From Opitutia bacterium (GTDB taxonomy: Bacteria > Verrucomicrobiota > Verrucomicrobiia > Opitutales > Opitutaceae), in assembly GCA_947472765.1 (NCBI GenBank), contig CANJCM010000017.1, positions 1-64,000 on the forward strand: a DNA stretch of 64,000 bases, read 5' to 3'. Each line of letters begins with the position of its first letter. Position 1 is the stretch's first letter. The notes below the pieces were generated by a model that was not told the DNA's origin, made no database searches, and saw nothing but the letters and a program-made list of their open reading frames with translations. Both the position numbers and the translations under genes were made by a program. Below are positions 5,925 through 54,197 of the stretch, in pieces.

Positions 5925-6027
5925 GGCGGGTGTGGGCACCCGCCCTCCATGGTCGGAGAAATTTTCGCAGGACCTGCGTTTCTTCTCCGAAAGAGCAATC
6001 AATGGAGGGACGGTGCCCTCACCGGCC
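5925..6027. repeat. REP-like inverted pair (family B) around a third hairpin
   Basis: A minus-oriented element (5925-5950) and a plus-oriented element (6002-6027) share the head ATGGAGGG and a 6-7 bp stem of the CCGGTG/CACCGG type. Between them lies a hairpin at 5953-5990 with outer stem TCGGAGAA/TTCTCCGA and inner stem CGCAG/CTGCG. The flank at 5897-5924 recurs, inverted, beside the element at 44563-44587. Confidence 0.85.
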
Positions 6028-31588: not shown

Positions 31589-31663
31589 GTGGCACGGGTC
31601 TCCTGACCCGTGAAATCACTTCGAACGGCCGTCCCCGTCCACGAGTCGGGAGACTCGTGCCAC
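31589..31663. repeat. REP-like inverted pair (family A, copy 2)
   Basis: Arms at 31589-31612 and 31640-31663 with GTGGCA heads and a 27-base spacer, the same geometry as 857-931. It starts three bases after the lpoB-like stop and ends nine bases before the next start, so it sits inside the operon and could tune relative expression. The spacer sequence is unlike that of copy 1. Confidence 0.85.
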
Positions 31664-37679: not shown

Positions 37680-37860
37680 GACGGGAAGCGGCGGGGCCGC
37701 TTCCGGTTGAGGGTTGAGAGTTGAGTGGGCTTGGCAACCGGAAGGTGTGTCCTCCTTCGCCAAGGCTACGGAGGACAGGTCCTCTGCGAACCGCGTCTGC
37801 GGGGATGCCTGGCCGGATGAACTTCGCCTGGGCCCGAGAAGGTTGGTCCCTCCGCCCGGC

Positions 37861-37911
37861 GCTTTTGCGACGCAAAAGCCTAGTCATTTTCCGCCGGAGG
37901 CGGAAAATGAC
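37861..37911. repeat. CTAG-centred twin hairpin upstream of exonuclease III
   Basis: Two hairpins flank a CTAG: 37861-37879 (stem GCTTTTGCG/CGCAAAAGC, one central base) and 37883-37911 (13 bp perfect stem beginning GTCATTTTCC, loop GGA). The second ends only five bases before the exonuclease III ATG, so it may affect translation initiation. Related elements are at 48266-48295 and 53907-53949. Confidence 0.85.
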
Positions 37912-37916
37912 CCGGA

Positions 37917-38675
37917 ATGAAGTTCGTTTCCTGGAACGTGAACGGCGTGCGCGCCGCCCATAAGAAAGGTCTGCTCGATTTCATGACCCAGACGCAGGCC
38001 GACGTCATCTGCCTGCAGGAGGCCAAGGCGCACCCTGGCGACGCGCAGCACATCGCGTGGCCGCATGGCTACGAGGTGTTCTGGAATCCGGCGGTGAAGA
38101 AAGGGTACAGCGGGACGATCACGTTCACGCGGCAGAAGCCCAAGGAAGTCACGCTCGGCATCGGTCGCGCGGACCACGACGGCGAGGGTCGCGTCATCAC
38201 CGCGGAGTACAAGGACTTCTTCCTCCTGAACGTGTACCAGCCGAATACGCAGCGCGGGCTGACGCGGTTGGATTACCGCACCAAGGAATGGGACCCGGCG
38301 TTTCTCGCCTACCTCAAGAAGCTCGAGAAGAAGAAGCCCGTGATTTTCTGCGGCGACCTCAACGTCGCCCACACCGAGCTCGATCTCACGAATCCGAAGA
38401 CCAACCGGCGCAACGCGGGCTTCACGGACGAGGAACGCGGAAACTTCTCGCGGATCCTCGAGGCCGGCTTCGTCGACACGTTCCGCGAGTTCGAGAAGGG
38501 CCCGGGCCACTATTCGTGGTGGAGCCAGATGATGAACTGCCGCGCCCGGAACATCGGGTGGCGCGTCGATTACTTCGTCGCCAGCGCCAAGCTGCAGTCC
38601 TCGCTCAAGCGGGCGTGGATCAGCCCGGAAGTCATGGGCAGCGATCACTGCCCGGTGGGACTCGAAATCGGCTGA
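37917..38675 (+). CDS. xth: Exodeoxyribonuclease III (AP endonuclease family 1)
   Basis: A Mg-dependent enzyme of base-excision repair that cuts DNA at abasic sites and has 3'-5' exonuclease activity. The 252 residues show all family motifs in order: SWNVNGVRA (about 5-13), CLQEAKA with catalytic Glu (about 33-39), LLNVYQPN, FCGDLNVAHTELDL (about 144-157), and the end GSDHCPVGLEI with catalytic Asp-His. YFV/WRVDYF precedes it. The start lies directly after a strong hairpin. CinA-like amidase follows by 11 bases and may be co-transcribed. Confidence 0.95.
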   Translation: MKFVSWNVNGVRAAHKKGLLDFMTQTQADVICLQEAKAHPGDAQHIAWPHGYEVFWNPAVKKGYSGTITFTRQKPKEVTLGIGRADHDGEGRVITAEYKDFFLLNVYQPNTQRGLTRLDYRTKEWDPAFLAYLKKLEKKKPVIFCGDLNVAHTELDLTNPKTNRRNAGFTDEERGNFSRILEAGFVDTFREFEKGPGHYSWWSQMMNCRARNIGWRVDYFVASAKLQSSLKRAWISPEVMGSDHCPVGLEIG

Positions 38676-44338: not shown

Positions 44339-44618
44339 GTAGGGCCGGCGCTCGCCGCCGGGCCGCTTCGCGAACGAAACCCGTGGCCTGCCGACGAGCC
44401 GGTTCGGCAAGCTCACGGCCAAACGGAGGGAATCCCGGGCCCTACGACGCTCCGTGGACGTTCCGTCGCACGTTAGGCCGCCCTGGACGGTGGGGGCACC
44501 GTCCCTCCATGGATAGCTCTTTGAGAGGAGCGCGAACGGAAGTCTGAACGATCCGCCTACCCTGGAGGGCGGGTGCCCACACCCGCCGATTTCGTTCCAC
44601 TGCCTCGTTCCGGCTCAA
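44339..44618. repeat. Composite repeat block (families C and B, two B elements)
   Basis: Contains a family C element (44339-44364), an inverse CCC-GGGCCCTAC end near 44448, a minus-oriented family B element (44484-44510) and a plus-oriented one (44563-44587). The part 44408-44511 matches 63813-63936 apart from a 26-base insertion there. The part 44563-44618 is the near-exact inverse of 5897-5950. Nearby 44660-44700 is a simple AACTCCAAACTCCG repeat. No gene is seen from 44275 to 44781. Confidence 0.8.
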
Positions 44619-46059: not shown

Positions 46060-46278
46060 GTAGGGGCGCGCCTCGTGCGCGCCCGACCTCAAGAATGGAG
46101 GGCGGATGTCCCCATCCGCCCTGGCGTTCAGCCCGGCATGGCCGGTGGGGGCACCGGCCCTCCATGGAAAAGCCGTCTTCGGTCTCCCGTCTTTCTCATT
46201 CTCGTAATCGTTCTCGCGAAGCGGCGGCGAGAGGGGAGCGCGAGCGCCTCGCCTGGAGGGCCGGTGCCCTCACCGGCC
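46060..46278. repeat. Repeat block: one family D and three family B elements
   Basis: Family D (head GTAGGGGCG) at 46060-46084; family B plus at 46096-46120, minus at 46140-46165 and plus at 46254-46278. The first two B elements form an inverted pair. They fill the gap of 328 bases between the YhiN and AEC genes; I see no gene or terminator there. Confidence 0.8.
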
Positions 46279-47513: not shown

Positions 47514-48266
47514 ATGGACTGGATTTCTGATCCGCAGATCTGGGTCTCTCTCGTGACGCTCACCGCGCTCGAGATCGTACTCGGCATCGACAACATCATC
47601 TTCATCTCGATCCTCGCGGGCAAACTGCCGGTCGAGCAGCAGGCGCGGGCCCGCAAACTCGGCCTCTCCCTTGCGCTGATCACGCGCATCATGCTCCTGC
47701 TGAGCCTGACGTGGGTGATGAGCCTGACGAAGCCGCTCTTCACGCTGCCCGTGATGAACCAGGATATTTCCGGCCGGGATCTCGTCCTGCTGATCGGTGG
47801 ACTCTTCCTGATCTGGAAGAGCGTCCATGAGGTGCACGAAAAGCTCGAGGACGACGACGGCCACGCGACCTCTGGCAAAACCAGGATCACTTTTGCCGGA
47901 ACGATCGTGCAAATCCTGGTCCTCGACATCGTCTTCTCCCTCGACTCCGTCATCACCGCCGTGGGCATGGCGAACGAGGTGGGTGTGATGATCGCGGCCG
48001 TCGTGATTGCACTCGGCGTGATGCTGCTGGCCGCGACGGCGATCAGCGACTTCGTGAACCGGCACCCGACGCTGAAGATGCTCGCGCTCAGCTTCCTAAT
48101 CCTGATCGGCGTCGCCCTCGTGGCCGAGGGACTTGGCCAGCACATTCCGAAGGGCTACATCTACTTCTCCATGGCCTTCGCCTTCGGCGTCGAGATGTTG
48201 AACCTCAAGCTGCGCGCCCGGGAAAAGGCCAAGAAGCCCGTCGAGCTCCACCAGCCGTACCGCTAG
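47514..48266 (+). CDS. TerC family integral membrane protein
   Basis: A 250-residue inner-membrane protein of the TerC/Alx family, linked to tellurium resistance in some contexts and to manganese or metal export in others. The two hallmark acidic motifs are ALEIVLGIDNIIFISILAGK (about 17-36) and DIVFSLDSVITAVGMANEVG (about 142-161). About eight membrane segments. No other ter genes are nearby, so the metal-transport role is more plausible than tellurite resistance. Its stop abuts a strong hairpin. Confidence 0.92.
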   Translation: MDWISDPQIWVSLVTLTALEIVLGIDNIIFISILAGKLPVEQQARARKLGLSLALITRIMLLLSLTWVMSLTKPLFTLPVMNQDISGRDLVLLIGGLFLIWKSVHEVHEKLEDDDGHATSGKTRITFAGTIVQILVLDIVFSLDSVITAVGMANEVGVMIAAVVIALGVMLLAATAISDFVNRHPTLKMLALSFLILIGVALVAEGLGQHIPKGYIYFSMAFAFGVEMLNLKLRAREKAKKPVELHQPYR

Positions 48267-48295
48267 GAATTTGTCGGCCGGAGCCGACAAATTCC
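48264..48295. repeat. CTAG-headed hairpin at the terC stop
   Basis: A CTAG at 48263-48266 that includes the stop codon is followed by a 13 bp perfect stem starting GGAATTTGTCGGC (48266-48278) with loop CGGA. No T-tract follows, so it is not a classical terminator. Confidence 0.8.
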
Positions 48296-48373: not shown

Positions 48374-48398
48374 GTAGGGGCGCACCTCGTGTGCGCCC
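48374..48398 (+). repeat. REP-like element (family D)
   Basis: GTAGGGGCGCACCTCGTGTG followed by CGCCC; head plus a 7 bp stem with CTCG-type loop. Similar elements at 28153-28177 and 46060-46084, and minus/plus at 60577-60635. Confidence 0.8.
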
Positions 48399-48468: not shown

Positions 48469-48610
48469 GTTATCTGGATTCCGAAGTTAAACGGATTGTC
48501 GTGGCCCTGTCCGTGAGGACAGGGACTTCGTGATCGTTTCGCCTCAATCCTTCCCGCTGCTCACGCAGCGGGCTACGAAGGCAACTTCGGAATCCAGGTA
48601 TTAGATAACA
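48469..48610. repeat. Large inverted repeat with two internal hairpins (family E, copy 1)
   Basis: The outer arms GTTATCTGGATTCCGAAGTT and its inverse AACTTCGGAATCCAGGT(A)TTAGATAAC enclose a GTGGCC-headed hairpin (stem CCTGTCC/GGACAGG, loop GTGA) and an inverted GTAGCC-headed hairpin (stem CGCTGC/GCAGCG, loop GTGA). A copy lacking the far outer arms lies at 60441-60566. The rest of the 447-base gap has no gene; 48660-48695 is a simple TCTCAAAT repeat. Confidence 0.85.
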
Positions 48611-51050: not shown

Positions 51051-51137
51051 GAATGGAAAAACCGCCGAGAAGAGCGGGTGGCGCGGGGCGCGCAAGGAAC
51101 ATTTCCGGGGCAGACAGGAAACCGCCCCGGAGTTTTT

Positions 51138-51961
51138 GGACAGGATGAACAGGATGGAACAGGATGCCGGACGGCGTGGGTGGGTGGCAGAAGTGACCCG
51201 AGTATTCTGGGATGGGATCTTGGCTCGGAACCTCGGTTTCCCATCCTGCAAATCCTGTTCATCCTGTCTAAACCCCGAGTTCGGAATTTCGTTCGAGCAG
51301 ATCTGTCCCGGAGATTTGGACAGGATGAACAGGAGGGAGCAGGATGCCGGACGGCGCGGGGTGGGTGGGAGAATGGACCCGAGTTTTCTGGGATGGGATC
51401 GTGGCTCGGAACCCCGGTTTCCCATCCTGTAAATCCTGTCCATCCTGTCTAAAACCCGAATTAGGAATTTCGTTCGGACAGATCGGGTCCCGAGTTTTTG
51501 GACAGGATGAACAGGAGGGAGCAGGATGCCGGACGGCGTGGGTGGGTGGCAGAAGTGACCCGAGTATTCTGGAATGGGATCTTGGCTCGGAACCTTGGTT
51601 TCCCATCCTGCAAATCCTGTTCATCCTGTCTAAACCCCGAGTTCGGAATTTCGTTCGAGCAGATCTGTCCCGGAGATTTGGACAGGATGAACAGGATGGG
51701 CAGGATGCCGGACGGTGCGGGGTGGGAGGGAGAAGTGACCTGAGTTTTCTGGGATGGGATTCTGGTTCGGAACACCGGTTTCCCATCCTGTAAATCCTGT
51801 CCATCCTGTCTAAAACCCGAATTAGGAATTTCGTTCGAACAGATCGGTCCCGGAGATTTGGACAGGATGAACAGGATTTACAGGATTCAGACCCAGCTGG
51901 CCCGCGCCGCGCCTTTATCCTGCCAATCCTGTCATCCTGTCCAAACTGCCTGTGAATCCTG
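51138..51961. repeat. 180 bp tandem repeat array with 362 bp higher-order period
   Basis: Units begin with GGACAGGATGAACAGGA at 51138, 51318, 51500, 51680 and 51860 (the last partial). Each unit is bounded by ACAGGAT motifs on the left and CATCCTG motifs on the right and thus contains an inverted repeat. Copies 1 and 3, and 2 and 4, agree better than neighbours. The frame happens to stay open on both strands, giving repetitive translated products with no family similarity. It fills the gap between tex and the divergent epimerase gene. Confidence 0.93.
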
Positions 51962-53906: not shown

Positions 53907-53949
53907 CCCGCGTTTCACGCGGGCCTAGGCCAGTCGCGGAGGCGACTGG
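53907..53949. repeat. CTAG-centred twin hairpin after the epimerase stop
   Basis: Starts immediately after the stop codon. First hairpin 53907-53923 (stem CCCGCG/CGCGGG, loop TTTCA), then CCTAGG, then second hairpin 53930-53949 (stem CCAGTCGC/GCGACTGG, loop GGAG). A family I arm (GGATTCTTCGCTCTGCTCAG) follows at 53957-53976. The rest of the 291-base gap shows a short AGTTAGTGTC-type repeat at 54060-54095 and no gene. Confidence 0.85.
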
Positions 53950-54197
53950 TCGGGGGGATTCTTCGCTCTGCTCAGAATGACAAACCGGCAGGGGGTGGTC
54001 CGTGAGTGGGAAGCGGCGATTCTCTTAGTCTCACGGCGATCGGACGGCGACGTCCTAGTCCGAGTTAGTGTCTCATTAGTGTCAGTTAGTGGTTAACTCG
54101 TCCTGCGGTGTCATAACGCGCCCCTTTTTCAAAAAATGGGAGTGCGTTTTCCCAACCCGCCGCTTCAGATCGACGTCACGCTTTCTCGCTCCGTCCC

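Follow-up and report, generated by a model that had tools for sequence, protein, structure and literature searches.

A REP-like family of double hairpins with strongly concerted arm evolution in one genus of the Opitutaceae

Hairpins, genes and CTAG sites in the window

At three sites in the window (the whole 64,000-nucleotide stretch of Opitutia bacterium DNA that was analysed), hairpins lie beside genes (Table 1). An earlier note had described them as perfectly paired stems joined to a CTAG, and positions and pairing were all confirmed in the sequence. The ATG of the exonuclease III-type gene stands 5 nt past a double element made of two hairpins, H1 and H2. At the second site, the edge of a single long hairpin gives terC its TAG stop; at the third, two hairpins and a CTAG are placed 3' of the stop of a UxaE-like gene. 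Directly past this last group, at 53956-53981, lies an imperfect palindrome, GGATTCTTCGCTCTGCTCAGAATGAC, which we take to be a widespread repeat. No Rfam family overlapped the three window hairpins at E ≤ 1.

Table 1. Coordinates of hairpins and neighbouring genes in the window
Feature	Position	Strand	Remarks
H2 hairpin GCTTTTGC-GAC-GCAAAAGC	37861..37879		Perfect 8-bp stem, loop GAC
CTAG between the two hairpins	37880..37883		Its G is the first H1 stem base (plus strand)
H1 hairpin, GTCATTTTCCGCC stem	37883..37911		Perfect 13-bp stem, loop GGA
Double-hairpin element, H1-spacer-H2 read on the minus strand	37857..37912	-	Upstream of the exonuclease III-type gene
Exonuclease III-type gene (Exo_endo_phos, PF03372)	37917..38675	+	Pfam E 2.6e-33
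TerC family membrane protein gene	47514..48266	+	Pfam PF03741, E 6.9e-48
Single long hairpin, GGAATTTGTCGGC stem	48266..48295		Perfect 13-bp stem, loop CGGA
6-bp hairpin CCCGCG-TTTCA-CGCGGG	53907-53923		Other side of CTAG 53925-53928
8-bp hairpin, loop GGAG	53930-53949		Perfect stem

The three sites had been read as examples of one kind. Scoring with a covariance model, R1 (built on 23 aligned double elements with a hand-written structure, its H1 counts rougher than its H2 counts), picked out the first site only: the element at 37857-37912 scored 51.4 bits (E 9.5e-14) and is itself one of the 23 training sequences. Neither the hairpin at 48266-48295 nor the group at 53907-53949 gave an R1 match at E ≤ 0.1. 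The former is likely a relative of the double-hairpin family; the latter is no family member by the model and, taken alone, could be unrelated to it.

CTAG, usually rare in bacterial DNA, is depleted here too, with 11 sites in the window against 59 expected from shuffles and 165 against about 514 expected in an 856-kb sample of the window's own assembly. A constant CTAG head was not borne out: among 37 oriented elements, selected by hand from 222 R1 matches with the strand chosen by score, the spacer edge read CTAG in 11 and CTC, CTG, ATT or others in the remainder. Some CTAGs consist of a TAG stop codon together with the stem's first base. The supposedly constant GGA loop proved variable, although GGA is the commonest H2 loop (14/37, followed by GCA at 8/37). 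A genome-wide search for CTAG with a GGA loop (CTAGN{8,16}CGGAG) returned 42 matches against 1102 for the reversed pattern, an uneven comparison since that control lacks the rare CTAG. In 5 of 30 such loci read, a CTAG-headed hairpin with a GGA loop stood at the match, and three of these five were the window's own. A GGA loop could serve as a CsrA-like RNA-binding signal; that role was set aside here because the loops vary.

A high-copy double-hairpin family in part of one genus

The element at 37861-37911 is a copy of a dispersed repeat family, an oriented hairpin pair of about 55 bp with REP-like size and habit. In its plan, an H1 with a stem of ATTTTCCGCC type is followed, after a short spacer, by an H2 with a stem of GGTTTTTGC type. 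The examined loci held 33 adjacent hairpin pairs as well as single hairpins, and 23 clear pairs align in one orientation, running from a ATTTTCCGCC-type H1 through the spacer to an H2 of GGGTTTTTGC type. No publication describing such a family was recognised in searches of open-access literature, and at five element loci the only Rfam family reaching gathering scores was a TPP riboswitch upstream of thiC.

We sampled 856 kb (the window and 40 further stretches) of the window's assembly, a 4.97-Mb genome here called G000. Its perfect hairpins include REP-like groups headed GTAG, GGAG or GTGG, and a separate class with a 5' arm like GG-TTT(TT)-CGC and a 3-nt loop. A T-run in the 5' arm marked 29 hairpins (stem ≥9, loop 3-4, ≤1 mismatch), whereas three Markov-shuffled copies contained 0.33 on average; those of opposite polarity, with an A-run in the 5' arm, numbered 7 against 1.33. 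The pattern GGNTTTNNGCNNNGCNNAAANCC occurs at 23 sites in G000 and at 0-1 in each of 86 other genomes of an order-wide sample. Across 27 genomes of the genus it was also found in G004 (15 sites), G010 (11), G101 (5), G107 (3) and G002 (2), with a single site each in G003, G025 and G111, and its reversed control matched no genome in either the order-wide or the genus search. The free positions of the pattern were fully paired at 21 of the 23 G000 sites and at 48 of 60 sites read (from 62 in the genus search). The stems are not simply unrelated, as had been claimed: those of the window's three are rather different, but many stems in the family fit the GG-TTT(TT)-CGC type of consensus.

Other palindromic repeats share the window. 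GGAG-headed hairpins with GGCCGGTG-type stems, which also differ while keeping their pairing, stand at 5925, 36047, 39293, 44485-44587, 46140-46278 and 63912, and GTGG-headed inverted hairpin pairs of the REPIN type (CACGGGTC-type stems) at 861-927 and 31593-31659. In a tandem array between Tex-like and UxaE-like genes (51126-51877), a 181-bp unit with inverted arms of ACAGGATGAACAGGAT type is repeated 4.2 times, and weak miRNA matches there probably reflect the palindromes of the array. The GTAG-headed hairpin at 48553-48586 bears a weak likeness to Acido-Lenti-1 RNA (23.4 bits; gathering score 37) and may be a REP rather than an RNA.

R1 matches, counted on both strands of near-symmetric elements and among the best 150 candidates scored per genome, were most numerous in G107 (116), G000 (102), G101 (89), G010 (87), G003 (80) and G004 (78). 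They fell to 53 in G025 (weak, best E 2.2e-7), 30 in G002, 15 in G111 and 6 in G108, and to 0-2 in each of the remaining 17 of the 27 genomes. The family is therefore high-copy in part of one Opitutaceae genus. For G025, the 53 weak matches stand beside a single site of the strict pattern, and they may represent a different or decayed hairpin family. In a four-protein tree, covering genomes with at least three of the four proteins, eight match-rich genomes fell inside one strongly supported group (1.000), with G111 and G108 outside it. Six poor genomes (G102, G011, G106, G008, G009 and G006) are nested in the rich group, beside G003, so that loss or separate gains are needed. A search with the terC protein gave Opitutaceae and other Verrucomicrobia MAGs as its best matches on named contigs.

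Gene edges and arm change between species

The hairpins are often flush with start and stop codons. Among the 29 hairpins in G000, 8 are placed within called genes; of the remaining 21, a start or stop is no more than 5 nt distant for 11, with genes placed by a simple caller whose starts are approximate. The same distance was reached in 311 of 4000 cases for random intergenic 25-mers and in 3 of 171 for non-coding REP hairpins. In loci from several genomes of the genus, the stop codons adjoining hairpins were TAG in 33 cases, TAA in 12 and TGA in 8, compared with 117, 144 and 404, respectively, for all genes of the G000 sample. Shine-Dalgarno-like sites precede 66 of 665 genes in that sample and 2 of 19 starts that abut hairpins; given this scarcity, a hairpin before an ATG seldom costs such a site in G000. 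A T-rich tract follows within the next 10 nt at 17 of 73 stop-associated hairpins only, and intrinsic terminators were rejected on this ground for most stop-associated copies.

Across the genus, the family is common to orthologous sites, with turnover. At the exonuclease III gene, the double hairpin was found in G000, G010 and G003 and not in 8 other genus genomes read (11 of 17 exonuclease III loci were covered), and G101 carries it too. There H2 has the stem GCTTTTGC in G000 but GGTTTTTGC in both G010 and G101, C-TAG-T is preserved in G010 and G101, and H1 is intact in G101 and mismatched in G010 and G003. The hairpin after the metW stop occurs in 2 of 27 genomes (G000 and G004), with CTGAGG in G101 against CTA-hairpin-GAGG in G000. 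Likewise, the terC stop is TGA in 6 of 7 other genus genomes, where G000 reads CTA-hairpin-GAG; G004 has an imperfect version of the hairpin, and TGA is the commonest terC stop among 36 wider relatives. This insertion-type contrast (T^GA) was seen at metW, terC and fabH, and a TGA relative also at L039:15998. Hairpins of the family type, some decayed, were found at fabH in 5 of 24 genomes, at an AGXT-type gene in 5 of 25 and upstream of nuoI in 6 of 22.

Some hairpins also lie within reading frames. At thiC, a match was found in 5 of 27 genomes; the thiC-thiS gap has hairpins in G000, G004 and G010 and none in G107 or G025. The thiC-end hairpin is in frame in G000, G004 and G010, and such hairpins give ThiC the C-terminal residues GVLAAPKP or similar. 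Within a thiE-thiE open reading frame, G000 and G004 carry a double hairpin in frame, and its stems differ among G000, G004 and G010. Interspecies comparisons revealed no transposition event or active copy, and many copies are common to several species. One candidate, a G004 hairpin that appears split in G000 by about 3 kb carrying two peptidase-like genes (named by eye), is explained equally well by a deletion between two like hairpins.

The arms of the family change in concert. We compared 117 orthologous hairpin pairs. They are what remained of 266 projected pairs once 149 had been removed for a weak projection, a flanking match that was short or distant, duplication, or more than 3 arm differences; this filter, and the need for a recognisable hairpin in both species, bias the set to intact hairpins, so that decayed copies are undercounted. 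In these pairs, 66 of 1049 pair cells (which are not independent, several pairs coming from one site) showed changes in both arms that yielded a different Watson-Crick pair; independent arms would give 10.5 two-sided changes. Two-sided cells between G000 and each other genome were 18/242 for G004 (2.5 expected), 16/170 for G010 (2.8), 5/62 for G101 (0.7), 4/45 for G002 (0.4), 1/36 for G003 (0.25) and 0/45 for G107. The proposal that stems vary while staying paired is thereby upheld. Its counterpart, that identical stems elsewhere would mean ordinary copying, applies in part: 909 cells were unchanged, so ordinary inheritance acts as well. A further 74 cells had changed on one side or lost pairing, which argues that correction is slow or incomplete. 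In 150 aligned R1 matches, which include both strands of some sites in an alignment fitted to the model, 93.4% of cells were paired against 77.6% when shuffled, and double changes numbered 406 against 117 in shuffles and 27-71 in slid controls.

The kinds of change bear on the level at which the arms are kept alike. If RNA pairing were under selection, G.U should be tolerated on the sense strand and A.C should not, and the route through G.U yields transitions. The concerted changes comprised 34 transversions and 32 transitions, a transversion share that points to one-step copying of an arm. Sense-strand mismatches in 167 hairpins (87 of them perfect) were G.U in 16 cases, A.C in 21 and other in 48, or 9, 12 and 16 at core positions, in a test with few cells, stem ends included and the sense strand taken from the nearest gene. 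With no sense-strand excess of G.U and transversions making up half of the changes, a DNA-level process is favoured over RNA selection. The earlier note had left the choice between compensatory change and a palindrome-making process; these counts speak for a process that corrects palindromes rather than for compensatory selection acting on RNA. Concerted change could also result from conversion by a different dispersed copy or from DNA-level selection. Template switching predicts inverted loops, but these showed no excess: 5 among 99 triloop pairs, where permutation gave 8.3. At the 3' end of fabH in G107 (L335), an 18-bp perfect inverted copy of the last codons and stop lies directly downstream of the gene; it stands outside the family and would be the kind of event that template switching makes.

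Origin, maintenance and known systems

With modest confidence, we favour a dispersed double-hairpin family that spread in ancient times and whose arms are kept alike at the DNA level by template copying between them. The copies would have dispersed in the distant past as small palindromes able to move or duplicate, possibly with a Y1 transposase acting in trans as the spreading agent. When replication meets the hairpin, one arm could template the other (template switching or quasi-palindrome correction), and a mutation in one arm would then be either removed or passed on to its partner in a single step. Insertion beside a stop may be tolerated because the edge of the palindrome supplies a new TAG, and insertion just before an ATG because G000 hardly uses Shine-Dalgarno sites. 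Correction alone does not explain the flush position at gene edges. A more far-reaching version, which we advance tentatively, casts the copies as bacterial self-copying palindromes at gene edges whose arms are constantly regenerated from one another through template switching, so that pairing and covariation would arise without RNA function while insertion recasts stops and adds C-terminal residues.

Chance or an ordinary compositional effect is hardly credible. GC-rich DNA does form hairpins by chance, the window's three stems are dissimilar, and the raw search for CTAG and GGA showed no enrichment; however, the excess of T-run hairpins over shuffled copies, the empty reversed-pattern controls and the hairpins at matching positions between species already refute chance for the family. 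A role as functional RNA, in which compensatory selection keeps the hairpins paired as 3' end stabilisers, tail-less terminators or 5' regulators, would account for the strong covariation and for hairpins flush with stops and starts, and unrelated hairpins also follow some stops in relatives lacking the family there. We nevertheless consider this unlikely: G.U is not preferred over A.C on the sense strand, T-rich tracts are few, it is the 5' arm that carries the T-run (29 hairpins, against 7 with an A-run there), opposite to the polarity of intrinsic terminators, an open reading frame encloses some of the hairpins, as at the thiE junction, and the family is missing from most genomes at the four gene edges that were compared within the genus.

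A somewhat stronger rival, though still rather improbable in our estimation, is an unusual REP family moved in trans by a Y1 REP transposase (RAYT), with concert arising from repeated copying and selection on the hairpin as transposase substrate. Y1 transposases occur in 23 of the 27 genus genomes (152 hits in total), and G000 combines 7 Y1_Tnp hits with abundant GTAG-, GGAG- and GTGG-headed hairpins. Over the 27 genomes, element matches rise with Y1 hits (Spearman 0.70; 5-23 Y1 hits in the eight rich genomes and 0-12 in the others), genome size being correlated with both (0.42 with matches, 0.70 with hits). A further Y1 gene in G000 (L040:2794-3123) lies 1.3 kb from a family hairpin (L040:1450-1503, about 22 bits). 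PMC3733652 reports that GTAG REPs supply TAG stops and enter open reading frames, and that REPs, of the GTAG kind, abound in the related Opitutus terrae; PMC3116915 describes compensatory changes in REPIN hairpins as well. Against this, the family has no constant tetranucleotide tag, and no element was found in 30 other Y1 loci examined (30 of the 152 hits, 13 of them from the eight rich genomes), whereas two G000 Y1 loci (L424 and L444) carry the GTAG REP. Some Y1-rich genomes have few or no elements (12 hits and 0 matches in G110; 12 and 15 in G111). The GTAG-headed REP itself (GGGCGCRCC..), present in the window at 46064-46084 and 48378-48398, flanks two G000 Y1 genes and probably has its RAYT in G000.

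Paired-base covariation is widely taken as proof of functional RNA. The family shows strong covariation, yet the G.U test and the high share of double transversions both argue against selection on RNA. Should the reading of arms copied from each other be confirmed, the family would be a natural system in which to study how template switching corrects palindromes, and would call for care in discovering RNAs from covariation. The family also illustrates how small repeats reshape gene ends, turning TGA stops into TAG and adding new C-terminal residues to ThiC.

In sum, the hairpins form a REP-like repeat family of double elements whose arms evolve strongly in concert, and the family resembles several known systems in part. 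Double-hairpin elements were reportedly described in the mitochondrial DNA of Allomyces by Paquin, Laforest and Lang in 2000; like the family, they are reported to have two side-by-side hairpins with a short spacer, to be restricted to a clade and to be scattered between genes, but they are mitochondrial whereas the family lies on bacterial contigs. Rickettsia palindromic elements (RPEs) are likewise bacterial palindromes able to sit in frame within protein genes. RPEs are longer than about 55 bp; the family is shorter, with many copies at gene edges. In PMC6649704, RPEs are said to lose arm identity over time, whereas many family copies keep it. The same paper describes coding palindromes in nematomorph mitochondria that are apparently kept by active correction, with template switching proposed; these resemble the family in that respect but are much longer, belong to animal mitochondria and form no dispersed consensus family. 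Template switching has also been proposed, in PMC8794818, to maintain hairpins in RNA gene evolution, one event altering both arms as the family would require; that work concerns RNA genes, and the loop inversions it predicts are not in excess here. The GTAG- and CGTC-tagged REPs of PMC3733652 are also short, dispersed, high-copy palindromes, mostly extragenic, that are reported to supply TAG and enter open reading frames. They differ in their constant GTAG or CGTC tag, the family having none (CTAG in 11/37), and the family has two unlike hairpins in fixed order and no clear positional link to Y1 genes. A REPIN is the same REP twice, inverted; in the family, H1 and H2 have different consensus stems and stand in one order.
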